From positions 46,876 to 69,200 of IMG/VR virus record IMGVR_UViG_3300001460_000019: 22,325 nt of DNA; one strand, written 5' to 3'. The notes beneath the pieces are model-generated. The model had not been told where the DNA came from and searched no databases. It saw nothing but the letters and a program-made list of their open reading frames with translations. The stretch is from a virus. Position numbers and translations under genes: made by a program. Shown in pieces: positions 363 to 22,047 of this stretch (position 1 is its first letter; every line of letters starts with the position of its first letter).

Positions 363-1031
363 CTACGCCTTGTGTTTTTGGTATAGCTGTTCTAGTTCGG
401 CAATATTGCTGACTGTGATGGACTTGTCTGGAAACTTGTATTGGTCCATGTGTGCAGGAAACACGATGTCTTCGTAATAGATGAACTGATGGAAACGCAA
501 TTTGTGTTTGTGTAGTTCTTGCTTTCTGTGTGATACTTTAGCAAGGTGATCTAGGAAAAATTCTGGTGCAATCGTTTTAGGGACCATATGATCTCCAAGT
601 GATTCGTCTATGTGATATATGCCTGTGAGTTTGGCCAAACAACGACTTAATACCTGTTGAAATAGATTTCTTCTTGATAGTCCTACTTTGTATGCAGGTA
701 ATTGCCATAGCCTTTGTTGATCGCGAAGTGAATAGTCCTGCATGTCTACTAGATGATTTTTGATAACTTTTGATTGTTGTAGGTTGTGGTTGATGTATCC
801 ACAAAGTCCAGATACATTGTTGTGAGCTAGTTCAAGCTGTTCATTTTTGTTTAGCCTATTGGGTATTGTATTTTTGTGTTCTGCAGAGTTCTGATGCCAA
901 AACTTTACCGAAAGTTCTTTGTTTTGTACGGTATTGTGTTTGAGACACCAATACAATGAATTACTGCCCGACCTAGGTTCCGATATGATGTGTACAAGAG
1001 GTTTAGATCTTAGGTGTTTTATGATATCCAT
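363..1031 (-). CDS. Stf0-like sulfotransferase, 222 aa
   Basis: Likely a PAPS-dependent sulfotransferase moving a sulfuryl group to a sugar or other hydroxyl acceptor. Residues 15-25 (IISEPRSGSNS) match the 5'-phosphosulfate-binding loop of this family. Residues 119-137 (SRRNLFQQVLSRCLAKLTG) match the second PAPS-binding motif of the Stf0 group, where an RR-x-x-x-x-Q-x-x-S pattern is followed by a TG. A late YYED motif is also typical. The frame runs 37 codons further upstream, but that stretch would overlap the plus-strand promoter at 1075-1082; the ATG at 1029-1031 sits five bases after a TAAATA promoter and gives a normal N-terminus, so I chose it. Acceptor unknown; in phages such enzymes could modify a surface glycan or a lipid. 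Family fairly sure, substrate not. Confidence 0.72.
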   Translation of the reverse strand: MDIIKHLRSKPLVHIISEPRSGSNSLYWCLKHNTVQNKELSVKFWHQNSAEHKNTIPNRLNKNEQLELAHNNVSGLCGYINHNLQQSKVIKNHLVDMQDYSLRDQQRLWQLPAYKVGLSRRNLFQQVLSRCLAKLTGIYHIDESLGDHMVPKTIAPEFFLDHLAKVSHRKQELHKHKLRFHQFIYYEDIVFPAHMDQYKFPDKSITVSNIAELEQLYQKHKA

Positions 1032-1036
1032 ACTGT

Positions 1037-1044
1037 TATTTACT
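1037..1044 (-). promoter_or_regulatory. T4-type late promoter (AGTAAATA) for the sulfotransferase
   Basis: Minus strand reads AGTAAATA, then ACAGT, then the ATG. By T4 late-promoter geometry (+1 about 6 bases after the final A) transcription would begin at the start codon. No Shine-Dalgarno fits in the 5-base gap. Confidence 0.55.
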
Positions 1045-2496: not shown

Positions 2497-2504
2497 TATT
2501 TAAG
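2497..2504 (-). promoter_or_regulatory. Late promoter (CTTAAATA) for the 107-aa gene
   Basis: Same CTTAAATA variant as the phoH promoter, 23 bases before the ATG, giving a leader of roughly 18 bases that includes GAGAGG. Confidence 0.5.
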
Positions 2505-2615: not shown

Positions 2616-3281
2616 TTAAACATTATAATTTATTATCCAATGTGCATTGCCTTGGTTATGTGGCTTTGCAAAAGTTTGTATGTTATGTACGTCGACTTTT
2701 CCTTTTGTTAGTATCCTGTCGTGTCGGAATCCATGTGCTACACCATCAACAATTTTAGAAAATGTAACAATGTTGTTTGTGTTATTTTTAAAATTGTGTT
2801 GTTCAATAAGACTTTCAAAGTTTTTAGGAGTGTCAGGTTCATAATGTATGTCACCTACCATAAGGCAGTTGTCATGTTGAACTATGTTTTCAAAAATATA
2901 TTCAAAGTCATCGTAAGTCCATTGTCTACTGATGCTGTGGTCTTCAAATGCTATTTGAAAGTTTATTATCTGTAAGTCTTTTATAACTATAGACTGTGCC
3001 ATACTTCCTTGATTGGAGTCATATTTGTATATGTCAATGTGATTATAAGTAGGCAGTTCAAAATGTTTTTGATCAGATATTTCATAGTTTGAACCTATTA
3101 CCAAACTACGATCAGCACTGTGGCTAGTTTTAAAATAATTATTAAACTTGTTCATTGCAACATGAAGGAAACGATCTTTACATCTTTGCAATAAACATAA
3201 GTTACTATTTTCTAATGCTTGTTCTAGATATGCTTCGTCGAAGTTATCTTGACTGCTACAATTCCATTGTGTTATCTGCAT
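2616..3281 (-). CDS. Degenerate endonuclease/exonuclease/phosphatase-like protein, 221 aa
   Basis: The order of motifs follows the DNase I-like (EEP) fold: WNC at residues 6-8 (family TWNV), LLQR at 30-33 (family LQE, metal-binding Glu), MVGDIH at 141-146 (family GDFN), HDRIL at 187-191 (family RIDYI), and AHW at 213-215 (family SDH). The Asp of GD and the late Asp and His positions are kept. The metal-binding Glu appears as Arg and the SDH Asp as Ala, so catalysis may be lost or altered. It overlaps the end of the oxygenase gene by 26 bases and is probably translationally coupled to it. Fold assignment is by eye and moderate; a substrate cannot be given. Confidence 0.55.
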   Translation of the reverse strand: MQITQWNCSSQDNFDEAYLEQALENSNLCLLQRCKDRFLHVAMNKFNNYFKTSHSADRSLVIGSNYEISDQKHFELPTYNHIDIYKYDSNQGSMAQSIVIKDLQIINFQIAFEDHSISRQWTYDDFEYIFENIVQHDNCLMVGDIHYEPDTPKNFESLIEQHNFKNNTNNIVTFSKIVDGVAHGFRHDRILTKGKVDVHNIQTFAKPHNQGNAHWIINYNV

Positions 3282-4020
3282 TTAATTCTTTCATTAACAT
3301 ATCAAAACTTTCACAAAGTAATTCATTGTGATGATGATTTGGATTTCCATGTACAATCATATGTATTCTATCTTGTGAGCTATTATTTTTTACAGCATGT
3401 AGTCTACCAATATCAATAGCTCTAACGTCGCCTGGTTGCCACGGCACTAATCCTGCTTCTTCCATTGCAAAATCTACTCCTGGAGGATTTGTAACAGCAA
3501 AATTATATGCGGCAAGTCTTCTTGTATTGTAATCTTGATGTGGTTTAATATATCCGTCTGGCTTTAGTAACATAAATCTTACTCTATGAAATCTATGATA
3601 GTGCCAATTTGTTTTTAACCAATCGACAGTTGCAGGACATTTATCTGCTATTGAAGTCCAATCATACGGAGGACAATTTTCTAAAGTAAACTCTCCTTGC
3701 TCGATATAATATTCTTTTGGTTGTGTATGCGTAGAACTTTGTCCATGAAGTGTAATACTTTCCCATCCCGGGTGTGTGTTGCCTCTATGTTTAACAGAGT
3801 CAACAATAACTTCATTGGCTTCTTTAGCCATTTCTTCTAAATGCGGAACAGCTATATTCATTTTAAGGGTCGGAGCATTACTATTTTGCTCGATCCATTT
3901 AGCATACTTCCATGTTAGTTTTTCATCACCTTGCCAGTTATTAAACTCGTCTGGTTTAGTTTTGATGTGTTGATAATGAGAATGCTGTTTGCAATCTTTT
4001 ATAAAATCTTCAATGTTCAT
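3256..4020 (-). CDS. 2OG-Fe(II) oxygenase, aspartyl/asparaginyl beta-hydroxylase-like, 254 aa
   Basis: Probably a non-haem iron dioxygenase using 2-oxoglutarate and O2 to hydroxylate a protein or small substrate. The double-stranded beta-helix core is visible: PHQDY gives iron ligands His161 and Asp163, GRLHAVKN gives His208, and DRIHMIVHG gives the 2OG-binding Arg218. GLVPWQPGDVRAIDIG before the distal His is typical of the Asp/Asn beta-hydroxylase-like branch. Residues 1-110 are an unassigned N-terminal extension. A late promoter (4026-4033) ends exactly five bases before the ATG, with no Shine-Dalgarno. Such enzymes are common in marine T4-like phages, with unknown targets. Next gene downstream overlaps by 26 bases. 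Confidence 0.82.
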   Translation of the reverse strand: MNIEDFIKDCKQHSHYQHIKTKPDEFNNWQGDEKLTWKYAKWIEQNSNAPTLKMNIAVPHLEEMAKEANEVIVDSVKHRGNTHPGWESITLHGQSSTHTQPKEYYIEQGEFTLENCPPYDWTSIADKCPATVDWLKTNWHYHRFHRVRFMLLKPDGYIKPHQDYNTRRLAAYNFAVTNPPGVDFAMEEAGLVPWQPGDVRAIDIGRLHAVKNNSSQDRIHMIVHGNPNHHHNELLCESFDMLMKELNADNTMEL

Positions 4021-4025
4021 GCTAA

Positions 4026-4033
4026 TATTTATT
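4026..4033 (-). promoter_or_regulatory. Late promoter (AATAAATA) for the oxygenase
   Basis: Minus strand AATAAATA, then TTAGC, then ATG. It overlaps the stop codon (4029-4031) of the upstream 645-aa gene. The predicted +1 is at the start codon. Confidence 0.6.
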
Positions 4034-5966
4034 TGTACCAGTTTACAAATTTATTTAATCTATTTTCATATTTTTTAGAAAAGTTAATTGACTCTTCTAA
4101 TGATGTAACTGTTTTACCTTTTTGAATCCAAAATTTATTAGGTGCGCCTGTTTGTAAATTTAAAAGTAGCTTTCTATATAAATGTTCTCTTAATCTAAAA
4201 TTATAAACCCATGCTGTGTTATAGTAACTGTACACATTTGAAAAAAATAGTAAAACTCTATCTTTTGATTTAGTTCTGTTTAATAATCTTCTTGATATTC
4301 TTTCTACATCAAAAAAATCTTCATGCAACCAATTAATTTCTAACTGAGGTAAAATATTCTTAACATAATTTAATAAACCATCTCCCGCAAATGAGTTTAT
4401 AAGCTCTTGCATTTTATCTATATTGTCTTGTGATTGAAATATATCTACATCTGCTACTTGCCAACGTTCATCATCAGGTGCATAATCTAACATTGACTGC
4501 TTAAGATATTTGGTTATATTTGTAATATCAACTTTGTCAGATACTACATCATCAAATAGATCCTTAGAGTATTTTAATGCAAGGTGGCTAGTATCAACTA
4601 CAAGTATTTGACCTCCTGGTTTTAAATTTGATCTCCATGCACGAGTAATTGGAGTCAACCCACCGGCCGTACAAACTATTGAATCAAAGTCTCCTGCATG
4701 TTTTGAAATTGGCTTAGGGTCTTCAGTGTTAGCAATAAAATGAATATTTGTCTGTGTCATTCTATGTATAGATGATGTTATGTCATCATTGTTAAATAGA
4801 TTCTCTCTTGATATATTGTTTTTTAATTTATGTGGCCATTCTTTTGATAAATTCTCAATGTTTGGCTTACCTTGTTCATTCCACCATTCTAAGTTAATTA
4901 AAAATACATCATCATGTTGCCCAACAAAAGAAATACTATTATCAAAGAAGTTTTTTAATTCTGTAAAGAACTCTTGTCCTTTATATTTAAATGTATTCCC
5001 AATTGGTGCAACAAGTAAATATTTAAATTTATTTTCTATTGCCCAATCAAATAAGTCTCGAATTTTTTTTCTTATAGCAACAATTTCTTCATCAAGGCTA
5101 GGAGAGTAATCATTGCATATCTCTACTATCCAATGCTCCATAATATTTTTAGAAAATTGTAAAAGTATATCATCTTTAACGTCATCACTACAGTCATGAA
5201 CTCCAAAAGCTATTCCGTTAGATTTTAACCATTCGTATGAATATCCTAAGGTGTCTCCCCATTTTGTATTAAGTTTAAAATGTGATTGTTTATCTGATAT
5301 AACATCTGGATAGAAATATCTTTTTGATATTCTAAGATTTTTATTAAAACTGTTTATAGTGTATTCTGAGTCTAATGCTTTTGATATAATATTCCAACCA
5401 AATTTTAAATTTTTATGTTGTTCAGTACCATTATCTTTTTTAATCCAAAGGGGAGTGTAATCATCATGATGATTTTCTATACTTCTAATTACTTTAGGCA
5501 ATTCTTTTTGTTCAGCAGTTTTATTTCCTATGTCTGGACAGCCTTGTTCTTTCCACCATTTTATATTTACAATAAAAGTTTGATGATGTAACTGATAGAA
5601 CATATCTTTTTTATCTAATATATGTCCTAGTATTGCTATTTTACTAGTATCAATACTTTCAAAATACTTTTGCAACTCTAAAAAGAAATGTTTATCATTG
5701 TCTTGGAATGTAATACCTAATGCACCTACAACAATAAAGTTTAAGTCATTGTTTACTGCCCATGATAATAATTTGTTTGCATCTTTGTTTCTTTCTATTA
5801 AGGGTGTATGGAGTGTATTATTAAACCCGTTTATCCAAAAGTCTAAACAGTTGTCGCTAGAATTTTTTAATGTCTCATCTTTAATATTATCACTAATATC
5901 AAATATACCTATGCCAATCTTGTTTTCTTGCAACCACTTTGCACTACTATCAAATATATTGGTCAT
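4029..5966 (-). CDS. 645-aa protein: tandem duplicated domain plus methyltransferase-like C-terminal half
   Basis: Residues about 8-148 and 243-372 are two copies of one domain. They share (S/Y)xxWLxxxxIxxGxxDxSDxxKD near the start, (V/L)(V/L)xxxGxTF in the middle, and HxxxFxxNxxWWxEQGxPxI at the end. I do not recognise this domain with certainty; its setting in a glycan gene block suggests a sugar-related role. From about 400 the protein changes: FDSIVCTAGGL (427-437), then WRSNLKPGG (444-452) and QILVVDTS (453-460) resemble motifs IV-V of class I SAM methyltransferases, but no glycine-rich SAM motif I is evident. The remainder is helical and unassigned. The start overlaps the upstream SDR-like stop in an ATGA, so it is co-translated. 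G+C is very low here (14/60 at 4081-4140). Confidence 0.8.
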   Translation of the reverse strand: MTNIFDSSAKWLQENKIGIGIFDISDNIKDETLKNSSDNCLDFWINGFNNTLHTPLIERNKDANKLLSWAVNNDLNFIVVGALGITFQDNDKHFFLELQKYFESIDTSKIAILGHILDKKDMFYQLHHQTFIVNIKWWKEQGCPDIGNKTAEQKELPKVIRSIENHHDDYTPLWIKKDNGTEQHKNLKFGWNIISKALDSEYTINSFNKNLRISKRYFYPDVISDKQSHFKLNTKWGDTLGYSYEWLKSNGIAFGVHDCSDDVKDDILLQFSKNIMEHWIVEICNDYSPSLDEEIVAIRKKIRDLFDWAIENKFKYLLVAPIGNTFKYKGQEFFTELKNFFDNSISFVGQHDDVFLINLEWWNEQGKPNIENLSKEWPHKLKNNISRENLFNNDDITSSIHRMTQTNIHFIANTEDPKPISKHAGDFDSIVCTAGGLTPITRAWRSNLKPGGQILVVDTSHLALKYSKDLFDDVVSDKVDITNITKYLKQSMLDYAPDDERWQVADVDIFQSQDNIDKMQELINSFAGDGLLNYVKNILPQLEINWLHEDFFDVERISRRLLNRTKSKDRVLLFFSNVYSYYNTAWVYNFRLREHLYRKLLLNLQTGAPNKFWIQKGKTVTSLEESINFSKKYENRLNKFVNWYK

Positions 5967-6514
5967 TGTATTGGATCCATATGTAACTCATTAATATTAA
6001 TGTTTATAGGAGCATCAATAATCCATTTAATATATTCTGCCGCTTGAGTAACATTCATTAATTTTCTATCAGGATGTTTTTCATGTACTTTTTTAGTTTC
6101 AAGTGAACCAAATGAAATATAACTAACTCTAATACCACTGCCACCCCATATGCCTAACATAGCATACTGATGACTCATACTTTTTAATGCTTTCTTTTCT
6201 TGAGGATAAATCCACTCAGCACCTTTAGTTGAACGATCAACTGTTGATCCAATATTGATAATGTGTCCTTGCTTGTTATTTTCTTTCCACGTTTTCCAAA
6301 CTGTTTCTAAAACTAATGACTGATTAAATTGATATAATGCACTACCATTAATAAAAACATCATATCCTAAGCTGTCGTATGCAAGTCTAATGCGACTATC
6401 TTTATTACATAAGTCATAATTGTTTGTTCTACTTGCAAAGTCAGTGTTTGGACAAACTATTGAGAACTTTTCTGCTAACCCGTAGTTAGCATTTCCAGTC
6501 ATTAATATTTTCAT
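5963..6514 (-). CDS. Short-chain dehydrogenase/reductase-like protein, 183 aa
   Basis: NAD(P)-dependent oxidoreductase fold of the SDR type, shorter than the usual ~250 residues. Seen: TGNANYGL at 6-13 in place of TGxxxGxG, INGSA at 56-60 in the NNAG position, the catalytic-Ser strand INIGS (Ser90), and the YxxxK pair Tyr103/Lys107 (YPQEK). The beta-6 region GIRVSYISFGSLET is also SDR-like. The nucleotide-binding motif is altered and the early part is shortened, so cofactor binding may be unusual. It overlaps the genes on both sides by 4 bases (ATGA), so it sits in the middle of a translationally coupled operon with the glycosyltransferase-like and 645-aa genes. A role in sugar-nucleotide conversion is an inference from context. 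Confidence 0.72.
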   Translation of the reverse strand: MKILMTGNANYGLAEKFSIVCPNTDFASRTNNYDLCNKDSRIRLAYDSLGYDVFINGSALYQFNQSLVLETVWKTWKENNKQGHIINIGSTVDRSTKGAEWIYPQEKKALKSMSHQYAMLGIWGGSGIRVSYISFGSLETKKVHEKHPDRKLMNVTQAAEYIKWIIDAPINININELHMDPIQ

Positions 6515-7890
6515 TTAATTTCTTTCATAGTCTTAATAAGTTCTTTCCAGTACTCGGCATGACTATGATCTAATAACTTCTGTCTATTGTGTAATAACTT
6601 TGGCCATACACGTTTATACAAGCCGTGTAATTCTTCTTGTGGCATTGCAGAAACTCTAATAATGTTTTGCATAACGTTGTAAAAACGTTGAGGATGGTCT
6701 TGTATCTCATCATAGTGTTCATCAAATATTTCTGGAAATGTTTCATATCCATTTTCTTTTAGGTATGCAAGTAATCCCGGATGACCTAATAATATAAAAG
6801 GTTGTAAGTTCATTATTGGTTTATAAATCTTTTCTGTAACAAAGAAGCTTGGCTCTGCAGGCCAAGTTTCAGTAGTAACATTAAAGTAAGTATCGAGATA
6901 GTGCTGAGCTGTCATGCCTCTGTTATGCCAAGCATCTTGTGTAGCATCAACATCTAAATTCATTTCTTTAATTTTGTAATTTCTGTGGAAGTCAATCATA
7001 TCCATTAAACGTTGATCACCTTGTCCTTTTACAACAGGCTGGAAGCAAAATTGATCTGGCTCATACGGAATATCAAACTTATTAAGGTAACTTACTATAC
7101 TGTCTTTAAACAAATCATTACGAGCAAACTCTGTCATTAAAAATTTACGATGAGGTCTTCCTCCGCCGTTCAAACATAAAAACTTCTTAGGTCTTATTCT
7201 ATCTCTAGTTTCTTCAGTAGCTGGTACTAATTCTTTTGCTTCGTCTGGTTTACCTATAACTTGACTTTTAATATAATCTGAAAACTCCCAAGCAAAATGA
7301 TCAAATGTAAAAACATTCTGTAAGTAATACTCATAAAAAGGACCTTGTCCAGAGTTTATGTATTTGCCATAATTCTGATCAAATTTTTGATCTCCAAATA
7401 TTAATATGAAATTTTCTTTTGGTATCTTTAACCATCCTAAACTTCTTTCAATAATATTAATCCAATTAACTTGATTTACTGGGAAAGCTTCGTAGGCATA
7501 ATATAATACAAGTTTTACAGCACCACGTCTAATCATATCAAGTGTGTATTCGTTGATATTACCAAACATATTTTCTGTTAGTAATGATATGTCCATATGG
7601 TTTGGTTCCATTACATACCAATCTAACGTTCCTACTTCTTCAGCAATATCTTCTGGTGGTATGTTATGAACATGCACTCCTGCTTGAGCAGAGAGTAATG
7701 GAAAAAATCCCTTGTTGTATCTTTCTAGTGGTATAAATCTAGTAAGTACGTTGATATCATAACGATGCTTCCATTTTGTGTCCCATTCTTTGATATATTT
7801 TGGATGTAGACCATTAGGCATTGGAGTTCCATTGTCACTCCAGTTGTCCCAAACTAATCTTATTTTTATATTTTCATCAGAACCTAGCAT
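6511..7890 (-). CDS. Glycosyltransferase-like protein, 459 aa
   Basis: Large soluble protein. Two blocks stand out. NGGGRPHRKF (241-250) opens a Rossmann-like half. PSFFVTEKIYKPIMNLQPFI (347-366) is followed by GHPGLLAYLKENGYETF and DEHYDEI (390-396). The TEKxYKP block with a following hydrophobic strand is like the nucleotide-sugar-binding part of fucosyltransferase (GT10)-type enzymes; similar proteins are frequent in marine phages, usually unnamed. First gene of the minus-strand operon: exact TATAAATA at 7909-7916 and AAGG before the ATG. The two following genes overlap it serially by 4 bases. Acceptor and sugar unknown. Confidence in a real gene is very high, and in glycosyltransferase function moderate. 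Confidence 0.8.
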   Translation of the reverse strand: MLGSDENIKIRLVWDNWSDNGTPMPNGLHPKYIKEWDTKWKHRYDINVLTRFIPLERYNKGFFPLLSAQAGVHVHNIPPEDIAEEVGTLDWYVMEPNHMDISLLTENMFGNINEYTLDMIRRGAVKLVLYYAYEAFPVNQVNWINIIERSLGWLKIPKENFILIFGDQKFDQNYGKYINSGQGPFYEYYLQNVFTFDHFAWEFSDYIKSQVIGKPDEAKELVPATEETRDRIRPKKFLCLNGGGRPHRKFLMTEFARNDLFKDSIVSYLNKFDIPYEPDQFCFQPVVKGQGDQRLMDMIDFHRNYKIKEMNLDVDATQDAWHNRGMTAQHYLDTYFNVTTETWPAEPSFFVTEKIYKPIMNLQPFILLGHPGLLAYLKENGYETFPEIFDEHYDEIQDHPQRFYNVMQNIIRVSAMPQEELHGLYKRVWPKLLHNRQKLLDHSHAEYWKELIKTMKEIK

Positions 7891-7908: not shown

Positions 7909-7916
7909 TATTTATA
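7909..7916 (-). promoter_or_regulatory. T4-type late promoter (exact TATAAATA) for the glycan operon
   Basis: Minus strand TATAAATA, 18 bases before the glycosyltransferase-like ATG. The leader holds TAAGGT as ribosome binding site. Divergent from the promoter at 7962-7969. Confidence 0.75.
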
Positions 7917-9522: not shown

Positions 9523-12500
9523 ATGGCTAACATTAAAAACTTCGGTTTAGCTGGTATTGGCTCAGACGTACAATTTGGTAAATCAGGTGGTAGATTGGTA
9601 TACGATTCATCATCAGCATTTTTCAAATTTACAACTGACGGCAGTACATTAACACAAATCAGAGCGGCTTCTCCATCAAACGCAACTGACGTAGCAACAA
9701 AATCTTATGTTGATGCTACTAAATCAGGCCTTGATGTAAAAGACTCTGTACGTGCGGCTACAACTGGCAACATAACTATCGCAACTGGCTTAAATGTAGG
9801 TGACGCAATCGACGGCGTAACACTTGCAGACGGTGATAGAGTACTAGTTAAGAACCAAACTACTGGTTCTGAAAACGGTATCTACACAGCAGGTGCATCT
9901 CCGGCAAGAGCAACTGATTTCGATGAGAACTCAGAAGTAACTGCTGGTGCTTTCTTCTTCGTAGAAGAAGGTTCAACTAACGCTGACTCTGGTTTCGTTA
10001 TCTCAACAGATGATGATATCACAGTTGGTTCAACATCAATTGCGTTTACTCAGTTCTCAGGTACAGGTCAAATTGTAGCTGGTAACGGTTTAGACAAAAC
10101 TGGTAACACACTGAGCGCCAATGTAGATGATTCATCACTTGAAATCAACTCAGACGCACTTAGAATTAAATCAACGTATGCAGGTCAAACATCACTTACA
10201 ACTTTAGGTACTATTTCAACTGGTACTTGGAATGCAACTGATATTGGCGTAGCACACGGTGGTACAGGCGCTTCATCAGCCGCTGATGCTAGAACTAACT
10301 TAGGTTTAGCAATCGGTTCTGACGTACAGGCGTTTGACGCACAATTGGCTGACATTGCTGGCTTAACTCCAACAGACGGAAACATCATCATTGGTGATGG
10401 TTCAAACTTTGTATTAGAGTCAGGCGCAACAGCAAGAGCATCATTAGGTTTAACTATTGGTACTCACGTACAGGCATTTGATGCACAGTTGGCTTCTATT
10501 GCAGGCTTGGCAGACACAGACGGTAAATTCATCGTAGGTTCAGCTTCAGGTTTCGTAGCAGAAGACGGCAACACAGCAAGAACATCACTAGGCTTAGGCA
10601 CTGGTGACACACCAACTTTCACAGGTGCGGCAATGGGTTCAGCGGCTATTACAGGCGTTGCAGATCCATCGAACGCTCAAGATGCGGCTACTAAGGCGTA
10701 TGTTGATGCCTCAATTGCTTCATCAAACGAAATCGGTGAATTATCTGACGTAAACATTACATCACCAGCAGACGGTTCTATGTTATTATATGACACAGGC
10801 AACTCTGTTTGGATTGATTCAGCTATGTCAGGTGACGCTACATTGGCAGACACAGGTGCAATTACACTTGCTAACTCTGATGCAACTAGAACAAACCTAG
10901 GTTTGGCTATTGGTACAAATGTTCAGGCATTTGACGCACAATTGGCTGATATCGCAGGTTTAACTCCAACTGATGGTAACATCATTATTGGTGACGGTTC
11001 AAACTTCGTATTAGAATCAGGTGCAACAGCAAGAACTTCTTTAGGTTTAGGCACAATTGCAACACAGGCGGCTAATAACGTAGCAGTAACAGGTGGTTCA
11101 ATCACTGGTGTTACTACTTTCTCAACTGGTACATTAGGTTCAACAGCAACTATTGATGGTTCAATGGCTATCACTGGTGACCTAGCAGTAACAGGTGACT
11201 TAACTGTTTCAGGTAACTCTATTACTTTAGACGTTGGAACAGTTACATCAGAAGACAAATACATGCAAGTAAACAGTGGTGCTACATCACAAGAAACTGG
11301 TTTAGCTGGTGGTATCGAGATCAAAAGATCAAATACTGCTGACACAGACCAATTTGCATTTGTTAACTTTGATGATTCAAATGACTCTTTCACATTCAAA
11401 ACTGGTTCAGCTAACCAGGCTTCAGTAGCAGACGCAACTATGCGTTTTGGTACAATTGCCGCTGGTACATGGAACGGTTCTGTAATAGGAAGAACATACG
11501 GTGGCTTTGGTACTTCAATCTCAGGTCACGGTACAAACTCACTTGTTGAAGCAGACGGCGGCGAAATCGGCGTAGGTTCAGCGGGTCAATACTTAAGATC
11601 AGACGGAACTAACTTCTCAGCTTCTGGATTAGCGGCATCAGATTTATCTGGTACTGTTGCGGCGGCAAACGGTGGTTTAGGTACAAACATCTCTTCTTTC
11701 TCACAAAGCTCTATCATCACTACAGACGGTGACGGTACAGTTTCAGAGTTAGGCAAAGGTGCAAACTCAACTGTTCTTAAAGTAAGTTCAGGTGGTTCTC
11801 TAGCATACGCAAAAGTTGATATGACAGCAGACATCACAGGAGCAACTCCAGTAGCAAACGGTGGTACAGGTTTAACAGCAGTTGGTACAGTAAACAAATA
11901 CTTAAGATCAACTGGTTCAGTTAACCAATACGACTATGTTACTGCATTAAGAGATGCGGCTGGTACATCAGCAATTGAAGTTTCAGGTACATTAACTGAT
12001 AACATCAAATTGGTAATGACTAATGCGGCAGACAAAGTAACATTACAAGCTACAGATCCAGATGACGGTGCGGCAAACATCGACCTAGTTCTTAAAGGAC
12101 AAGGCGACGGTGTTGTTGTAATTTCTGAATCTTCAGGTGGTAACTCACTTGTAATGGCTGATGATAACTTAGACTTAACAGTATCAGGTGGTGCGGCTTC
12201 AGGCGCGGCGGCTGGTGATGCAGTTATCAAAGGTGGTAACGGTACAGGTGCTCACGCATCAGGTGACGTTTTAATTAAAGGTGGTACTGGCGGTGCTTCA
12301 GAAGGTAAAGTAAAAGTACTTGACTCTTCTAACAATGAGATTGCTATTTTCGAAAGAACAGCTTCGGCTATCAACGAAATTTCAATCACTAACGCGGCGG
12401 CTTCAGGTGCTCCTTCAATTGCATCAACTGGTGGCGACACAAACATTTCATTAACACTATCTCCAAAAGGTACTGGTGTAATCACAACTTATGATGGTTA

Positions 12501-13018: not shown

Positions 13019-13026
13019 GATAAATA
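13019..13026 (+). promoter_or_regulatory. Late promoter (GATAAATA) for the 55-aa gene
   Basis: GATAAATA begins two bases after the preceding terminator T-tract. Leader of about 20 bases with AAAGGAG at 13039-13045. Confidence 0.6.
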
Positions 13027-13246: not shown

Positions 13247-13254
13247 TATAAATA
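13247..13254 (+). promoter_or_regulatory. T4-type late promoter (exact TATAAATA) at the tRNA
   Basis: Exact consensus ending 6 bases before the tRNA 5' end. The predicted +1 coincides with the first tRNA base. Confidence 0.65.
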
Positions 13255-13260
13255 ATAGTA

Positions 13261-13334
13261 TGCAGTGTAGTGTAGTGGTAACACGTTAGTCTCAGTAGCT
13301 AGAGTTATGAGTTCAATTCTCATCACTGCTACCA
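13261..13334 (+). tRNA. tRNA, anticodon reads CAG in the standard fold (identity uncertain)
   Basis: A full cloverleaf with an encoded CCA (13332-13334). Acceptor TGCAGTG (13261-13267) pairs with CACTGCT (13324-13330) except for a U-U at the first pair. T8-A9 follow. D arm GTGT/ACAC with loop AGTGGTA. Anticodon arm TTAGT/GCTAG with loop CTCAGTA (13291-13297), placing CAG at 34-36. Variable loop of 4. T arm ATGAG/CTCAT with loop TTCAATT, all five pairs intact. CAG would read Leu codon CUG, but a Leu tRNA should have a long variable arm, and a U at position 37 is very unusual. A shift of the anticodon arm by two bases would give CTC (Glu) with A37. The gene is clear; the amino acid is not. Confidence 0.82.
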
Positions 13335-13408: not shown

Positions 13409-13516
13409 ATAGCACACCAAAGAGGGACTCGCGTTATATACTTTGGGTGCTGTCAATTATTTTCTATACACAAAAATTATATAAGAGTATAAGGGGTTTA
13501 ATCCTCTTATACTCTA
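13409..13516 (+). ncRNA. Candidate small RNA between tRNA and radical SAM operon
   Basis: Starts at the predicted +1 of the promoter at 13396-13403. First hairpin: AGCAC (13411-13415), bulged A, CCAAAG (13417-13422), an 18-base loop, CTTTGG (13441-13446) and GTGCT (13447-13451), 11 bp. Then an AT-rich linker and the 13-bp terminator hairpin at 13484-13515. A promoter, a stable hairpin and a terminator in about 110 bases are the parts of a small RNA. No family recognised. Confidence 0.4.
13484..13515. terminator. Bidirectional terminator between convergent units
   Basis: AGAGTATAAG plus GGG (13484-13496) pairs with CCTCTTATACTCT (13503-13515), including one G-U; 13 bp with loop TTTAAT. It contains the stop codon of the minus-strand radical SAM gene (13507-13509). 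On the minus strand TATATAATTTTTG follows; on the plus strand ACTATTAATTTTATT follows. Confidence 0.7.
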
Positions 13517-14715
13517 CTATTAATTTTATTATATATTGTACACATGTCTTTCGCTGAATAGTTTCTAATATGATCATAGTAGGATAAAAAGTTTTTTGTG
13601 TCTTTCCATGTTAAATGACTGTTTGCTTTTTCTATAATGCTTGTAAAACTTTTTACTTGCGGATATGTTTCAATGTAAGGTTGACATTCTTTTATTATTT
13701 GTGTTCTTATTTCTTTTGGAACAATACCAATATTAAGTGCTTCAGGCCACATAACTAGTACCGGTGAAAATTTAGTAAAGTTATATTCTTTACCATATTT
13801 TAATAAGTCTGGCAATTGATCTAAATTTAATAATTGTATTGCTGACGTTAGTGTTGACTTAATATTACTATATTGTTTAATAGTTTCATTAAATGATTGC
13901 TGTATTTGTTTTGTCTTTTCCCATTTACCAGGCCATCTAATATATTCAAATGTACTACCTATACCATCTGTAGACCAGTTTATATCTACAAGTTTAAACT
14001 TACTAAAAATAGGTATCCATTTAGTTACATCAGTTGTGCCATTTGTAACAATAATAACTTCTATGTTTTTAGCATATGATGTTTGTGAAAGTTTTTGTAT
14101 AAATTCTTTAAACCCATCTAATAATGTTGGTTCGCCACCTGTAAACTTTAATCTTAGTAAGTTTGGTGCCTGCTCTAATAACTCTTGTAAGTTATTTCTA
14201 TCAAAGTCATTGTCTTCACCGGTTGATACTATTAATTCTTTTAGATCATTAGGCACAGGGTATTTTTGCTTTTCTTTTGTATGTAAGGAAGAACTATGTC
14301 CATCACACATTACACACGCAAGATTACATTTGTTACCAAACTTTAGATCTAAAGTTCTAAGTGTTAAGCCACCTTGTTCTTTTATTTTTTGTACCGTTCC
14401 CGGAAATTTATTTTCTATTTCAATTGATTGATTAAGTCTTTTACTTAATGAATATGCTCCGTCTTTTTCATATTGATAACACCTACGACATTCTTTAATA
14501 GGTTTGTTACTTAACATTTTTTCTCTTATATTATTTAGAACGTTATTATTTTTCCATGTATCAATTATTTGATTATTGTACATGTCTGAATCTATTGTAT
14601 CTGAAAAACAACACAATTGCCCGTGTCCTTGTGCTGTATTACATATTTCTGTAAAAGGCAACACACAAAAAGAATTACCGTGTTCTTTAATAAACTTTTG
14701 ATAGTCTTTATGCAT
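13507..14715 (-). CDS. Radical SAM protein with N-terminal Cys-rich (twitch/SPASM-like) region, 402 aa
   Basis: Cytoplasmic iron-sulfur enzyme making a 5'-deoxyadenosyl radical. The 4Fe-4S site is C130-NLA-C134-VM-C137 (NKCNLACVMC), and the SAM-binding GGEP is at 193-196 (FTGGEP), followed by VTNGT. Ahead of the core, FCVLPFTEICNTAQGHGQLC (Cys7... in family terms, Cys35-Cys36) and CRRC (76-79) give a second Cys cluster. The layout Cys-rich N-terminus then core is shared with the gene at 15979-17127 and is typical of marine-phage twitch-domain radical SAM proteins of unknown substrate. AGGTGG lies 9 bases before the ATG, and its start overlaps the preceding gene by 8 bases. Last gene of a three-gene operon; its stop lies in the terminator hairpin. 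Confidence 0.85.
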   Translation of the reverse strand: MHKDYQKFIKEHGNSFCVLPFTEICNTAQGHGQLCCFSDTIDSDMYNNQIIDTWKNNNVLNNIREKMLSNKPIKECRRCYQYEKDGAYSLSKRLNQSIEIENKFPGTVQKIKEQGGLTLRTLDLKFGNKCNLACVMCDGHSSSLHTKEKQKYPVPNDLKELIVSTGEDNDFDRNNLQELLEQAPNLLRLKFTGGEPTLLDGFKEFIQKLSQTSYAKNIEVIIVTNGTTDVTKWIPIFSKFKLVDINWSTDGIGSTFEYIRWPGKWEKTKQIQQSFNETIKQYSNIKSTLTSAIQLLNLDQLPDLLKYGKEYNFTKFSPVLVMWPEALNIGIVPKEIRTQIIKECQPYIETYPQVKSFTSIIEKANSHLTWKDTKNFLSYYDHIRNYSAKDMCTIYNKINSRV

Positions 14716-15991
14716 TCAATGTACCACCTATTACAGGAGTAAGATTCTTTACTGATTTTTTAAACATTGCTTTAGTTATATCGTGATGCTGTGCTTTAGG
14801 TACGCACAAACCACAACCACAAACTTTGTTTGGACAAGTTATCACTGGCATAGTTCCGGTAGCAAACTGTTTTTCTAGTTTGTTTATTATTTGATCACAC
14901 TCAGTAATAGTTCCTATCTCTCCCTTCTTACCTCCAAAATTTGCTCTGCATGTTTGATGATGTAATATTTTATTATACTCTTGTTCAATGTGTAGCCAAT
15001 TCCAATTTATCATGCATGACCATTCTTTATATTCAGTTGAACACGCAAATACAGATTTTTTCCAATCATTAGTATCTAGCTTTACATTGTCTTTCTTATA
15101 TTGATCTTCATCTAGTGTATAAAAAGTTCTTTGCCCACAGCAAGGTCTTCCTAATGCTTTTCTTGTATTGACTTCTTTTGGTTTTGGTGATATTTCTTTT
15201 ACTACTTTTGGTTTTTCTTTTAGAGTATGTACAACTTGTTTTTGTTGTTGTACTTTCTTTTGATCATCTTTATATTCATACTCTGCATCTTTATTTGCAT
15301 CAGGCTTGTTTATTTTTTTGTTTTTATTTGTCCAATAGTTTCTAAACCATGCATGTTGTTCCGGAGTATATCGATGTACATACTTACTATCTTCATAGCT
15401 TTCACCAATGATACGAGGTACAAACTTTATATTATCGTCTGTAAACCTATCAACGAGCTTCATACATTCATCAAAGTATTCTGGTTTAGCATGTACCATC
15501 AAATTAACTTTATATTTGATTCCTGAGTTATGTAACTGATATATTCTTGCAACTACATTATCTTTTATCTTTTGTTTTGCTTCACAATGATAACTTACTG
15601 TAATAGAATCAACAGCTTCTATAAGTTTATCACAATACTTTTGGCTAAATGCTCCATTAGTAGTAACATCAACTAATACGTCTGGATCATTTTGTGCATG
15701 TATGTATTGACACATTTCTAAGAAGTTTGGATTGTTAGTTGGTTCCCCACCTGTAAAACCAATATTCCACTGTCTATCAAAAGTCATTTGTGATTGCATT
15801 AATTTTTTATACTCAAAAACAAATTTACTTGTTTTAATTAATGTTTCTAAACTTGCATGTGAAGAAGTATTGTTGTGTCTATGTGCAGGACAATAGGTAC
15901 AGTCGTAATTACATCTTAATCCTAAATCCCATGTAACTTCAAATGAATAAGGATTTTGTATATCGTTGTCTATTGCTATTACTTTGCCCAT
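14708..15991 (-). CDS. Radical SAM protein with charged linker and C-terminal Cys cluster, 427 aa
   Basis: The core begins at once: C27-NYD-C31-TY-C34 (LRCNYDCTYC) binds the radical 4Fe-4S cluster, and FTGGEP (79-84) and VTTNGAF follow. Residues about 225-278 are a charged, low-complexity Lys/Gln/Glu/Pro linker. Behind it is a second Cys-rich region: RPCCGQ near 284, CST near 318, SCM near 326, QTC near 348, and a dense TCPNKVCGCGLC near 386-397. That arrangement suggests additional Fe-S clusters or a SPASM-like substrate domain, or a zinc knuckle. It overlaps its neighbours by 13 and 8 bases, so the three are expressed together. The order (core first, Cys tail last) is the reverse of its two neighbours. 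Substrate unknown. Confidence 0.85.
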   Translation of the reverse strand: MGKVIAIDNDIQNPYSFEVTWDLGLRCNYDCTYCPAHRHNNTSSHASLETLIKTSKFVFEYKKLMQSQMTFDRQWNIGFTGGEPTNNPNFLEMCQYIHAQNDPDVLVDVTTNGAFSQKYCDKLIEAVDSITVSYHCEAKQKIKDNVVARIYQLHNSGIKYKVNLMVHAKPEYFDECMKLVDRFTDDNIKFVPRIIGESYEDSKYVHRYTPEQHAWFRNYWTNKNKKINKPDANKDAEYEYKDDQKKVQQQKQVVHTLKEKPKVVKEISPKPKEVNTRKALGRPCCGQRTFYTLDEDQYKKDNVKLDTNDWKKSVFACSTEYKEWSCMINWNWLHIEQEYNKILHHQTCRANFGGKKGEIGTITECDQIINKLEKQFATGTMPVITCPNKVCGCGLCVPKAQHHDITKAMFKKSVKNLTPVIGGTLNA

Positions 15992-17127
15992 GTTTCAATT
16001 TCTTTAAACCAAGATTCAAATTCTGGTCTTATGTTTAGTATGTTTGTGTTTCTCACTTTATCAAGTGCATTAATCCAGTTATAAAATTTATGTTGTAATT
16101 GTTTTTCTTTTTTAAAACCTGATTGTGGAATTTTAATATCTTTATTTGTTTCTAACATAGAGTCTGGCAATACCGATCTTACATCTAAGTGTCTTGGAGT
16201 ATATACATAGTTTACATTATGATATACATTATCAAGGTTTTGTTCTTTAATCCATTTTTTAGCTAGTTTAGATTGATCATACGTTGTACAATGTATTGTG
16301 TCTACTATACTTAATCTTGATGCTACTTTAGATAGTTGTTTGATATTTTCTTTTATTGTTTCTAAAGTATATATGCCTCCTCTTGAATATTGATAGACAT
16401 CTTGTTCCCAAGCATCAACACTACATAATAGGTCAACGTTTTTAAACTTTCTTAAAATAGTATCAATATTTTTATTATATAATGTAAGATTAGTAATGAT
16501 TGAAAGATTAATACTACTTCTTCCTATACTTAATAGAAACTCTAAAAATTCAAATAGCATAGGTTCATAAAAAGGTTCCCCGCCTGATATTTCAACTTTG
16601 GTTACTGACTCCCACCATTGTTTACTATTTCTTAACCACCACTTGTCTGGTAACTTATCATATGAACTTATTGCTTTTTTAGGAAACATACCAAGTTCAG
16701 AAAGTTTTTGCTCGTCTTTTACCCAACCGGTTGATCTTTTACTATTACACATTACGCATTTTAAATTACATTTGTTTGAAAAGTCAATTTTTAAAAAGAA
16801 AGGATTGTTATTCTGTTTTCCATGAGCTCCAATTACTGGATTAGAAAAGTGATTAATTTTATGTCTAACTGATCTAGATCTTTTATTTTCTGTTGTTGTT
16901 GCACTGTCTTGAGAAAGACACTGGTCGCATCTACCTTTAGGTAACGGACCGTTAGCTAATGGCTCAATTGCTTTAATGAATTCCGAAGACTGCATCTTTT
17001 TTAGAAAGTCTCCGTCCTTGTCTAGGTTAAATTCCATTGGTTCACCTAAGGCACAACATGGTGTTATTTTCCTGTCATGTCTAAGCCATATATGAGACGT
17101 TCCTGCGTTACACCATTTTTTTGTCAT
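15979..17127 (-). CDS. Radical SAM protein with N-terminal Cys-rich (twitch/SPASM-like) region, 382 aa
   Basis: First gene of the radical SAM operon. N-terminus: a Cys6 in KKWCNAGT, PCCALGEP (Cys24-Cys25) and CDQC (67-70). Core: C120-NLK-C124-VM-C127 (NKCNLKCVMC), ISGGEPFYEP with GGEP at 182-185, and SIITNLTLY. Similar in build to the third gene of the operon (both have IDFSNKCNLKC / LKFGNKCNLAC), which suggests duplication and divergence. Promoter AATAAATA at 17165-17172 with a leader of about 32 bases; AGAG is the weak ribosome binding site. The neighbouring HAD gene ends just upstream but has its own promoter. The family is clear; the product made is not. Confidence 0.86.
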   Translation of the reverse strand: MTKKWCNAGTSHIWLRHDRKITPCCALGEPMEFNLDKDGDFLKKMQSSEFIKAIEPLANGPLPKGRCDQCLSQDSATTTENKRSRSVRHKINHFSNPVIGAHGKQNNNPFFLKIDFSNKCNLKCVMCNSKRSTGWVKDEQKLSELGMFPKKAISSYDKLPDKWWLRNSKQWWESVTKVEISGGEPFYEPMLFEFLEFLLSIGRSSINLSIITNLTLYNKNIDTILRKFKNVDLLCSVDAWEQDVYQYSRGGIYTLETIKENIKQLSKVASRLSIVDTIHCTTYDQSKLAKKWIKEQNLDNVYHNVNYVYTPRHLDVRSVLPDSMLETNKDIKIPQSGFKKEKQLQHKFYNWINALDKVRNTNILNIRPEFESWFKEIETWAK

Positions 17128-17164
17128 AGTTTTTCTCTAGTATTGATATATCTATACGTAAATG

Positions 17165-17172
17165 TATTTATT
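17165..17172 (-). promoter_or_regulatory. Late promoter (AATAAATA) for the radical SAM operon
   Basis: Minus strand AATAAATA, 37 bases before the ATG at 17127. It overlaps the stop codon of the upstream HAD gene (17168-17170). Confidence 0.6.
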
Positions 17173-17764
17173 TGCTGTTTTTGTACGTCTGTGTAACGTA
17201 ATCGTAGATGTCTTTCCAGTTAGCAACCTGGTGTACATTTTTATTTGCGTAGTGAATATTGTAAGCATGTTTCATTAGTACAGGCTTTAATCCAACCTTT
17301 AATGCGTCTTCTAAGTTAGAAATTCTATCGTCAATGTATATTAATCCGCTGTTTTCAAAGTCCATCATAGCATCTAGTTTAGGTGCGCCAGCTGGTAAAC
17401 ATCTTACATCAACAAATACATCAGTGTCAAAGTAATCTTCAATGTTTAGGTAACGATAATATTGTGCAATCGGTTTATCACTTAATGATGTAATAGCAAT
17501 AAAATGATAACCTTCTTCGTGTAGCTTCTTAATATATTCTTCAGACTGTCTCATTGGTTCTAAAACAGAACAAGCCATAGAGGCATTGAACTCTTCTCTT
17601 TTCACAGTAGCTTCTTGTAAAGAAATACCAAACTCGTTTTGTATTTCTGCGTCATGATGTATAACTCCTGTAGAAGAATAGCCTTGCAATTCCATCCACT
17701 TTACGAATGCTGTATGCCAATCAAAGACAACTCCATCAATATCTGTTAAAATTATTTTGTCCAC
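17168..17764 (-). CDS. HAD-family phosphatase, 5'-nucleotidase-like, 198 aa
   Basis: Haloacid-dehalogenase fold phosphatase. Motif I is LTDIDGVVFDW with nucleophile Asp8 and acid Asp10; motif II is FIAITSLSD (Thr92/Ser93); Lys129 in PAGAPKLD fits motif III; motif IV is IYIDDRISN (Asp145, Asp146). The cap between motifs I and II is helical, and the size matches small 5'(3')-deoxyribonucleotidase-like or phage HAD hydrolases. The start codon is GTG (17762-17764) with GGGAGAG five bases before it; an ATG slightly upstream is out of frame. The leader starts with a hairpin at 17782-17801. A nucleotide or sugar-phosphate substrate is likely but unproven. Confidence 0.85.
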   Translation of the reverse strand: MDKIILTDIDGVVFDWHTAFVKWMELQGYSSTGVIHHDAEIQNEFGISLQEATVKREEFNASMACSVLEPMRQSEEYIKKLHEEGYHFIAITSLSDKPIAQYYRYLNIEDYFDTDVFVDVRCLPAGAPKLDAMMDFENSGLIYIDDRISNLEDALKVGLKPVLMKHAYNIHYANKNVHQVANWKDIYDYVTQTYKNSK

Positions 17765-17781
17765 TCTGCTCTCCCATTATT

Positions 17782-17801
17782 TGTAGATTGCTCAACCTAC
17801 A
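17782..17801 (-). promoter_or_regulatory. 5'-terminal hairpin in the HAD leader
   Basis: On the minus strand TGTAGGTT, loop GAGC, AATCTACA: 8 bp including one G-U. It starts at the predicted +1 (about 17800) of the promoter at 17806-17813. Confidence 0.45.
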
Positions 17802-17805
17802 TATA

Positions 17806-17813
17806 TATTTACT
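17806..17813 (-). promoter_or_regulatory. Late promoter (AGTAAATA) for the HAD gene
   Basis: Minus strand AGTAAATA, 41 bases before the GTG start. Confidence 0.5.
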
Positions 17814-17887
17814 GTAATTTAGTAGTAGTCAAACATACCACTTTAATTAATAAACTTCTGTTAATGGATTCTTGCACTAGTTTTAAT

Positions 17888-17895
17888 AATAAATA
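17888..17895 (+). promoter_or_regulatory. Late promoter (AATAAATA) for the PP-loop gene
   Basis: AATAAATA, 22 bases before the ATG at 17918. Leader about 17 bases with AAAAGG as ribosome binding site. Confidence 0.6.
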
Positions 17896-17917
17896 TGTAA
17901 AAGTAAAAAGGTAAAAA

Positions 17918-18577: not shown

Positions 18578-18593
18578 ATCTTTTTTGAATTAA

Positions 18594-18611
18594 AACTCTA
18601 TATATAGAGTT
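18594..18611. terminator. Palindromic hairpin after the PP-loop gene
   Basis: AACTCTA, loop TATA, TAGAGTT: a perfect 18-base palindrome 17 bases after the stop codon. TTTTT follows only 9 bases later, so termination is likely but not classic. Confidence 0.45.
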
Positions 18612-18631
18612 CTAAGATGTTTTTATGTAGC

Positions 18632-18706
18632 CTACAAGGCGATAACTATTATTACTTGAGTAACAACAAAGACGAGGCATATAGCATAAGCTAACAGACG
18701 CCGTAG
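18632..18706 (+). ncRNA. Candidate structured RNA, three-way junction
   Basis: Closing stem: CTAC (18632-18635) with GTAG (18703-18706), a two-base bulge AA, then GGCG (18638-18641) with CGCC (18699-18702). Inside are two tetraloop hairpins: TTAC-TTGA-GTAA (18652-18663) and TAGC-ATAA-GCTA (18682-18693). The joining segments are A- and G-rich (ACAACAAAGACGAGGCA). The complementarity of all four helices was checked by eye. No known riboswitch or ribozyme consensus was recognised. Strand is assumed from the flanking plus-strand genes. Confidence 0.45.
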
Positions 18707-18890
18707 ATGTACTTTGTTTATTGAATAAACTTTGTTTATTCGTTTAGGTTATGTTTGGTAGTAAGCAACCCAAGAGCACTGCAAGGCAGTCAGGTTTAAA
18801 AAGGCTTTTAAATTTAAGCTACCGTTATAAACAATAATAACCTTAGAAGACTTTAGGTCTTCATTTGTGAAAAAATGTTTTTGATTTTTT

Positions 18891-18925
18891 CCCCGGCTGA
18901 TGCTTAATGCATCCTAAGTCCGGGG
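18891..18925 (+). other. GC-rich nested hairpin
   Basis: CCCCGG (18891-18896) pairs with CCGGGG (18920-18925); inside, GATGC (18899-18903) pairs with GCATC (18909-18913) around loop TTAAT. Six T precede it and only TTTATG follows, so on the plus strand it is a weak terminator candidate at best. It ends 20 bases before the late promoter at 18945 and may insulate that promoter from upstream transcription. Confidence 0.6.
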
Positions 18926-18944
18926 TTTATGCATTCTAGCACTC

Positions 18945-18952
18945 CATAAATA
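18945..18952 (+). promoter_or_regulatory. Late promoter (CATAAATA) for the fourth radical SAM gene
   Basis: CATAAATA, then GTTAT, then ATG: the same 5-base spacing as at 1037, 4026 and 20059. No Shine-Dalgarno in the gap. Confidence 0.6.
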
Positions 18953-18957
18953 GTTAT

Positions 18958-20058
18958 ATGTCTTGGGCACTTAAAACAGATCAAATTACACGTTTACAAA
19001 TAGAGCTTACAAATTATTGTAATGCTGGTTGTCCTCATTGTGCAAGAGTAAACTATTTAAATTCAGATTGGCTTAAAGGATACAAACAAGAATCACCATA
19101 CCCAGTCAGCATAAATTCAACACATTTAAATATAGACAGATACAAAAAAATGATTACAAATGATAAATGGGAAAGTCTACGTGAAATACACTATTGTGGA
19201 AACTATGACGAACCAACTGTACATCCAAAAATTATGCAATTTATTGATTATACTGTAGAATATCTACCACAAGCAAAGTCTATTAGTATTGCTACCAACG
19301 GTGGTACTAGAGATAGAGAATGGTGGAAACAATTAGGAGAAAAAAGCAATCAATTAAAACAAAAAAATATTGATTTAAGAGTTGTATGGGGTATAGATGG
19401 CCTAGAAGATACAAATCATATCTATCGCAAAGGTGTTAATTGGAATAAATTAAAAGAGAATTATACAGCATATAATCAAGCAGGTGGTAATTCAACATGG
19501 CAAATTATTGTATTTGATCATAATGAACATCAATTAAATGAAATTGAATCCAATTATAAAGCCTGGGGATTTAATTCTATTAAAATAATCAACAGCAACA
19601 GAAAAAATCCACAGATTAAAATTGATAAAAGCCCAAAGAAAAAATATATACAGCATGATACTAGCAATCAAATAAAAAATACACCAATTAATAAAAAAAT
19701 ACCACCATTTTCTATGCCCAAAACCACAGCAACAGTAAAAAAAGATACCATTTTTTGCAAGGCTTTAGAAAAAAATAGCATAATTAAACGAAGTCTTTTT
19801 ATCACAGCACATGGATTTATTACTCCTTGCTGTTGGATGGGGACTGATCGTAGCCTCAAAGAAGGTGCTTCATCATTTTCACAAGGACTTGATCCAGAAA
19901 TTCATTCAATTTATTCACAAGATTCAATAACAGATATATTAAATTCAAAGTATTTTTCTCAGCTACAGTCAGCATGGAACAATAGATCCTATATAACCTG
20001 TAATGAAAAATGTTCCACAGCACATAATCCTGATATAAAAAGCATAATTAAAAGGTAA
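18958..20058 (+). CDS. Radical SAM/SPASM-like protein, 366 aa
   Basis: Radical SAM iron-sulfur enzyme with the core at the N-terminus: C21-NAG-C25-PH-C28 (TNYCNAGCPHC). The usual GGEP is replaced: the equivalent position reads YCGNYDEPTVHP, so only the EP is kept. SIATNGG follows. Residues about 215-265 are a Lys/Asn/Pro-rich linker. The C-terminal part has FCKALEKN, FITAHGFITPCCWMG and CNEKCS, the pattern of a SPASM-type domain that holds auxiliary Fe-S clusters (in which a G-x-(I/V)-x-P-C-C strand is typical). It is alone in its transcription unit, with the ATG five bases after a late promoter. Related to, but distinct from, the three radical SAM genes at 13507-17127. Confidence 0.85.
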   Translation: MSWALKTDQITRLQIELTNYCNAGCPHCARVNYLNSDWLKGYKQESPYPVSINSTHLNIDRYKKMITNDKWESLREIHYCGNYDEPTVHPKIMQFIDYTVEYLPQAKSISIATNGGTRDREWWKQLGEKSNQLKQKNIDLRVVWGIDGLEDTNHIYRKGVNWNKLKENYTAYNQAGGNSTWQIIVFDHNEHQLNEIESNYKAWGFNSIKIINSNRKNPQIKIDKSPKKKYIQHDTSNQIKNTPINKKIPPFSMPKTTATVKKDTIFCKALEKNSIIKRSLFITAHGFITPCCWMGTDRSLKEGASSFSQGLDPEIHSIYSQDSITDILNSKYFSQLQSAWNNRSYITCNEKCSTAHNPDIKSIIKR

Positions 20059-20066
20059 TATAAATA
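20059..20066 (+). promoter_or_regulatory. T4-type late promoter (exact TATAAATA) for the nitroreductase-like gene
   Basis: Begins immediately after the stop codon of the radical SAM gene (20056-20058, TAA). CTTTT separates it from the ATG at 20072. AAAAGG lies upstream of the promoter and so would not be in this mRNA. Confidence 0.7.
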
Positions 20067-20071
20067 CTTTT

Positions 20072-20842
20072 ATGAGTATGGATAAAGAAAAAGAGTATAT
20101 TAATACTATTAAAAAGTGCCAACGCAATTGGGACCTAACAAAATCCATACCTCAAGAGCATATTGATCACTGGTTATGGATAGCTCAAAATGCCCCAAGC
20201 AAACAACATGAAGCATATTATGATGTTTATTTTATTCGCAAAGCTGAAGTAATCAAAGAAATGCTAGAATACACATGGGGTTTTACAGCCACAACAACAC
20301 CACCTAGCTGTTGGAGAAATCCACAAATGGGTGCTAATTTTTACATGTGTTTTGTAAGCAAGTATCCAGATACAATGCGTAACTATGAAGTAGATGGCGA
20401 AGGTCGTTCAGAAGAATATCAGGGCAGACGTGATAACTGTTTGGCTTCAATTGGACTGGCAATGGGCTTGATTGCACGTTCGGCCGCGGAAATGGGCTAT
20501 GCAACAGGCTTCAACAAGAACATGAGTTCACCTCCAGACAAGGAATATTGGTGGAAACGTTTGAACATATTGGATGGCGTAAATGATGGTACGAAAGCAC
20601 TGGAATATGGCATAGGCATTGGATATCCACAGCAGGATCTAGAACACACACAGTCAGATCAACATGAAGTATTGATAGGACAAGCCACTGGAGCATGGAC
20701 AGACAATCCGGGTAAAATAGTGGATATAAAACAGATATCCGCAGAAGACAACCAAGGTAACATACACTACCTACCCAAAGAAATTAAATTCCCATCATTT
20801 TCCAAAGAAAATCGCGACATTAAATGTATAGAGATCAAATAG
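20072..20842 (+). CDS. Nitroreductase-like flavoprotein, 256 aa
   Basis: Likely FMN-binding oxidoreductase. NWDLTKSIPQEHIDHWLWIA, then QNAPSKQHEAYYDVYFI, matches the family's N-terminal helix and A-PS-x-x-N/Q-x-x-P-like FMN region (Ala41-Pro42-Ser43). DNCLASIGLAMGLIARSAAE, then MGYATGFNKNM, matches the central helix and the G-(L/Y)-x-(S/T)-G-x-x motif. ALEYGIGIGYPQ fits the (I/L)xGYP block. Two in-frame ATGs exist (20072, 20078); the first is at the predicted mRNA 5' end. Base composition rises sharply inside the gene: 22/60 G+C at 20101-20160 and 31/60 at 20461-20520, back to 21/60 at 20761-20820. Reaction partner unknown; a role together with the radical SAM enzymes is an inference. Confidence 0.78.
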   Translation: MSMDKEKEYINTIKKCQRNWDLTKSIPQEHIDHWLWIAQNAPSKQHEAYYDVYFIRKAEVIKEMLEYTWGFTATTTPPSCWRNPQMGANFYMCFVSKYPDTMRNYEVDGEGRSEEYQGRRDNCLASIGLAMGLIARSAAEMGYATGFNKNMSSPPDKEYWWKRLNILDGVNDGTKALEYGIGIGYPQQDLEHTQSDQHEVLIGQATGAWTDNPGKIVDIKQISAEDNQGNIHYLPKEIKFPSFSKENRDIKCIEIK

Positions 20843-21991: not shown

Positions 21992-22047
21992 CGATTGGGC
22001 CCCTGATCAATTGCCCCTATACTCACTATATACGCTGTAACCACTAT

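Follow-up and report, generated by a model that had tools for sequence, protein, structure and literature searches.

T4-type late promoters whose TAAATA core stands five bases before the ATG, so that promoter and start codon are joined directly, are very probably what defines a sharp class of genes in the marine viral DNA analysed here. On the basis of sequence, the late mRNAs of these genes are strongly predicted to be leaderless. The case combines a sharply defined spacing that is conserved in divergent phages, an initiator signature, few Shine-Dalgarno sites, and a gene for a late sigma factor in one related contig (G002); from these we infer the actual 5' ends of the mRNAs and initiation on a 5'-terminal AUG. 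This leaderless variant of the T4-type late promoter is apparently undescribed; a search of open-access literature found no paper that describes late mRNAs of T4-like phages as leaderless. The DNA examined (the window, 22,325 nucleotides) comprises bases 46,876–69,200 of a 75,415-base viral record (IMG/VR; here G000), which is itself a fragment. The N-number denotes the count of bases between TAAATA and ATG.

An earlier note had placed TAAATA-N5-ATG at four gene starts of the window, and we find the motif at each of them: 1042..1029 (−), 4031..4018 (−), 18947..18960 (+) and 20061..20074 (+). The promoters and their genes are as follows.

363..1031, − strand: gene, 222 aa, predicted leaderless start, sulfotransferase-like (PRSGS motif only)
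1037..1042, − strand: late-promoter core TAAATA (box AGTAAATA), N5 spacer ACAGT, ATG at 1031–1029; the least certain of the four
3256..4020, − strand: oxygenase of the aspartyl/asparaginyl beta-hydroxylase family, 254 aa, leaderless start predicted (PF05118, E=2.4e-12)
4026..4031, − strand: late-promoter core TAAATA (box AATAAATA), N5 spacer TTAGC, ATG at 4020–4018
18947..18952, + strand: late-promoter core TAAATA (box CATAAATA at 18945–18952), N5 spacer GTTAT, ATG at 18958
18958..20058, + strand: radical SAM/SPASM protein, 366 aa, leaderless start predicted (PF04055, PF13186)
20059..20066, + strand: perfect late promoter TATAAATA directly after the stop codon of the preceding gene, N5 spacer CTTTT, ATG at 20072
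20072..20842, + strand: nitroreductase-like protein, 256 aa, leaderless start predicted (PF00881, E=4.7e-4, below the curated cut-off)

Among these four gene sites, only the box at 20059 is a perfect TATAAATA. The boxes at 18945 and 4026 each deviate from it by one mismatch, and the one at 1037, the weakest, by two. With single deviations allowed, the window sites thus carry the TATAAATA-like box of a T4-type late promoter. In-frame stops lie upstream of the oxygenase (−33), radical SAM (−21) and nitroreductase-like (−27) starts, and the first two genes have no other starts nearby; the 363..1031 gene has a second in-frame ATG 72 bases upstream. The name sulfotransferase, which the earlier note had given to this last gene, could not be upheld by any family match in Pfam, PHROGs or NCBIfam.

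Including a fifth match at 13249..13262 (+), which overlaps the start of a tRNA gene, its ATG belonging to the tRNA, the window holds more copies of the motif than dinucleotide shuffles produce (0.9 expected; five reached in 0 of 100). For frames of at least 60 aa, four occur at N5 against a mean of 0.2 per other spacing, corresponding to about 0.004 after correction for 41 spacings. Outside the window, the 75-kb record has a further N5 gene as well as three genes at N6 and one at N8; N0–4, N7 and N9–10 are empty, and the leadered group follows at distances of about 14–40 bases.

To place these counts in a lineage, we assembled 11 whole marine phage records from IMG/VR: nine related contigs (one of them the 328 kb G002) retrieved with a large protein encoded at the record's left end, one record found through the oxygenase, and the window's own record. 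The oxygenase query of viral contigs returned only this one relative, whose orthologue is without an N5 box, and the radical SAM protein query returned no relatives. Start codons were called from open frames (at least 60 aa for Poisson tests, at least 80 codons for the lineage histogram). In this set 60 open frames begin at N5 compared to 3.9 at neutral spacing (Poisson 7.6e-49). The histogram contains 2, 2, 1, 1 and 1 genes at N0 to N4, 47 at N5, 16 at N6, 3 at N7, 17 at N8 and 1 at N9, and stays low until the leadered group. The comparison with N4 and N6 in relatives, suggested in the earlier note, gave a very strong preference for N5 (47 versus 1 versus 16). Other hexamers made of four A and two T have no N5 peak in these records, except for those that overlap the TAAATA motif. 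The N5, N6 and N8 genes represent 55 protein families, 39 of them with an N5 member. Shine-Dalgarno-like sites precede 7 of the 47 N5 genes as opposed to 103 of 181 leadered genes, which bears out the prediction that the N5 class has none to rely on.

The spacer had been described as exactly five bases long and conserved in length but not in sequence. Its sequence is in fact constrained, since the base before the ATG in N5 genes of the relatives is T in about 83% of cases and C in the remainder. The strict length of five holds for SAR11-type phages, but in the window's lineage N6 and N8 occur as well. Lineage orthologues interchange N5, N6, N7 and N8, so that what they conserve is a predicted leader no longer than about three bases. 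The N8 class comprises 17 genes, found in G002, G003, G004, G005 and at G000:44126, and N7 is rare; three-base leaders seem to be favoured over two-base leaders.

The same class is present in other phages. In a second set of 80 marine T4-like contigs, retrieved with the major capsid protein, 57 open frames begin at N5 of TAAATA compared to 3.7 at neutral spacing, and for the longer motif ATAAATA the counts are 44 at N5 and zero at both N0–4 and N6. HTVC008M, a T4-like phage of Pelagibacter (SAR11), has 11 N5 genes; Mosig has six, Melnitz, the phage of a methylotroph, three, and P-SSM4 and PA5oct two each. The N5 ATG is the GenBank start codon in HTVC008M and in the Mosig genes that were checked. 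No N5 peak was found for GTG or TTG, so that the peak is confined to ATG. Upstream of gp2, the full TATAAATA-N5-ATG is retained in three phages, HTVC008M, Mosig and Melnitz, whose gp2 proteins share about 39% identity. Of 73 gp3 loci, 35 have the exact TAAATA-N5-ATG; there the flanks vary, but the box, the ATG and the base just ahead of it do not. At gp3 of Melnitz and of two contigs (L194, L234), AAAAGG and another ATG, out of frame with the first and matching the gp3 start, come after TATAAATA-N5-ATG; this may be an intermediate between the leaderless and leadered forms.

The pelagimyophages HTVC008M and Mosig have this N5 class with the sharpest peak; the window's phage belongs to a separate lineage, which also uses N6 and N8. 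With T4-type late promoters (TATAAATA, gp55/gp33/gp45) the genes described here share the box, the predicted +1 six bases on and, in G002, a late sigma homologue. In T4 and KVP40, however, the box lies mainly 9–40 bases 5' of the ATG and never 5–8, whereas here a large class is fused to the start codon. T4, KVP40 and Syn9 have zero N5 gene starts, and their open frames taken together (3 at N5 versus 2.0 neutral) do not differ significantly from expectation. The NATAAATA late promoters of cyanophages (S-PM2, Syn9) are alike in the box, but N5 genes number none in Syn9 and two in P-SSM4, and the leadered class dominates. Known leaderless mRNAs, such as lambda cI or the TA-led genes of Actinobacteria and Deinococcus (PMC3160421), likewise start with AUG and have neither room for a leader nor a Shine-Dalgarno site. 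They differ from the present class, in which a phage late sigma system would be at work and which includes terminase and tail genes besides enzymes.

This gene content does not agree with the suggestion that N5 starts belong to accessory enzymes and leaders to virion genes. N5 genes of the relatives encode the large terminase, structural proteins, PhoH and several radical SAM proteins, and those of HTVC008M include gp2, gp3, gp4, gp48, gp53, a putative tape measure and a baseplate gene, so that we can exclude an enzyme-only class. The leadered genes are also mixed and include enzymes alongside portal, structural and tail genes; among them is a translation elongation factor-like protein at G002:266007–268076 (phrog_6880, E=1.7e-122). 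By simple tally, radical SAM genes are frequent in the N5 class, and in G002, G003 and G005 members of the family of the 18958..20058 protein start at N5 or N8. The window itself encodes four radical SAM proteins within 7 kb (13507–20058), two of them annotated as 'twitch domain' (NF033640), and more are found elsewhere in the record. The idea that N5 genes are stand-alone cassettes holds for some of them, such as gp3, which follows an apparent terminator; others lie within or head same-strand gene runs.

Where transcription begins can be predicted from the leadered late promoters, which include these four sites of the window.

2497..2502, − strand: leadered late-promoter-like site (CTTAAATA), 23 bases 5' of the ATG of gene 2150–2473, with GAGAGG
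7909..7916, − strand: leadered late promoter TATAAATA, 18 bases 5' of the ATG of gene 6511–7890, with AAGG
13021..13026, + strand: leadered late promoter (GATAAATA), 25 bases 5' of the ATG at 13052, with AGGAG
17890..17895, + strand: leadered late promoter (AATAAATA), 22 bases 5' of the ATG of gene 17918–18577

Across the lineage, leadered promoters (N15–40, n=110) have T at base 5 after the box in 65% and A at base 6 in 76%. Since the T4 late box is numbered from −13 (PMC2988020), +1 is predicted to fall on the sixth base after the box, and the T-A signature at bases 5 and 6, an independent indication, would place +1 on the A of the ATG in N5 genes. Fixed spacing and initiator signature thus back the earlier prediction that the start codon is the first codon of the transcript. 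In each of the 17 N8 genes base 6 is a purine, which would give a leader of three bases.

We propose that a gp55-family late sigma factor of the phage would guide the host's RNA polymerase to TAAATA (−11 to −6), and that transcription would begin at the sixth base after the box, on the T-A initiator. In N5 genes the initiator A would be the A of the AUG, so that the mRNA would lack a leader and ribosomes would have to initiate on its 5'-terminal AUG unaided by a Shine-Dalgarno sequence. For N6 and N8 genes the predicted leader is about 1 to 3 bases long, and ordinary leadered late genes with Shine-Dalgarno sites would coexist in the same genomes. Consistent with this scheme, G002 encodes a late sigma homologue of the gp55 family (phrog_12791, E=2.9e-81). 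It adjoins a gp47 homologue, and the order in HTVC008M is alike apart from one small gene. The 75-kb record of the window, being a fragment, contains no gp55 match, and the window's own phage presumably carries the gene elsewhere. A single-sequence query with HTVC008M gp45, run without a positive control, gave no sliding clamp match in the lineage. A crude test for leaderless use by the host, comparing TATAAT-N5-7-ATG with N10-12 on SAR11 chromosomes, gave no clear excess.

Could the N5 class have arisen by chance, because an AT-rich genome yields TAAATA and ATG often and the spacing was picked afterwards? The window counts are small, and TAAATA alone is not over-represented there (31 versus 42 expected). 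Yet the N5 peak recurs in three data sets (p < 1e-11 each) while hexamers of the same composition are flat. Given these hexamer controls, the contig histogram and the Poisson tests, we reject chance as the cause of the peak and consider it almost certainly wrong. It is highly improbable that no promoter is involved and that the TAA is an upstream stop codon in stop–start coupling, or the AT-rich box a standby or S1 site for the ribosome. TAA is indeed the upstream stop codon in 9 of 55 N5 sites of the lineage and in 4 of 17 in SAR11 phages, but most sites are without such an overlap and other TAA-containing hexamers have no N5 peak, which eliminates stop-codon coupling as a general cause. Also against it are gp3 promoters that stand after an apparent terminator, and an initiator signature that is present where the box lies 15–40 bases upstream.

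Two further alternatives accept the box as a promoter. In one, the first AUG is unused and ribosomes begin at a downstream codon with a Shine-Dalgarno site. The gp3 genes with AAAAGG and an out-of-frame ATG resembling the true start would fit this model, as would the second ATG two codons inside the 20072 gene. On the other hand, the oxygenase and radical SAM genes have no start in the following 120 bases, GenBank starts match the N5 ATG, orthologous proteins align from it, and an open frame follows it far more commonly than at other spacings; we therefore judge a downstream start very unlikely. The other alternative is that primary transcripts at N5 are real but minor and that most protein comes from longer, leadered read-through mRNAs. 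Several N5 genes do lie close behind same-strand genes, for example the oxygenase after 4029–5966 (−), but in many contigs an apparent terminator stands ahead of gp3. Because N5 sites mostly have no Shine-Dalgarno sequence, read-through mRNAs would be poorly read as well, and we regard this explanation as unlikely. Direct fusion of late promoter and start codon is thus the reading that we retain.

Some gene junctions of this class are very compact. In the oxygenase promoter the TAA (4031–4029) is the stop codon of the upstream 645-aa gene, which puts stop codon, promoter and start codon within 14 bases. Late promoters also stand next to tRNA genes.

13247..13254, + strand: perfect TATAAATA, six bases 5' of the tRNA; same spacing before tRNA-Leu(CAG) in G002 (116329)
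13261..13334, + strand: tRNA-Leu, 74 nt, with the CAG anticodon as called (ARAGORN)

The primary transcript of the 13247 promoter is predicted to start about one base 5' of the 5' end of this tRNA. For a leucine tRNA it would be short, and its first base pair appears to be U-U. A tRNA-Thr follows a late promoter by seven bases in G001 and G002.

Several phages with the N5 class also encode the ribosomal protein bS21, namely G002 (275501–275656), HTVC008M (91228–91431), Mosig (9932–10141), Melnitz and PA5oct. T4, KVP40 and Syn9 have neither, and P-SSM4 is an exception with two N5 genes and no bS21; this tabulation covers nine genomes, with host and base content as confounders. In freshwater phages that infect Bacteroidetes, late expression of phage bS21 has been reported (PMC9723584). 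If phage bS21 were swapped into the host's ribosomes at a late stage of infection, initiation on a 5'-AUG might be favoured, a tentative idea that we consider rather unlikely.

SAR11 are the most abundant bacteria in the ocean. The present results predict leaderless reading for a sizeable share of SAR11-phage late mRNAs, including those of structural genes, whereas T4 shows none. They also provide a simple rule by which late promoters and true start codons of pelagimyophages can be located; according to a published survey, cyanophage methods failed to detect late promoters in these phages (PMC7029224). Initiation on 5'-AUG in streamlined marine bacteria thereby becomes directly testable. As a minor observation, the right end of the window (21540–22325) has little coding signal and contains repeated short motifs (GACCCCGCTGTAG, GGCCACCAC).
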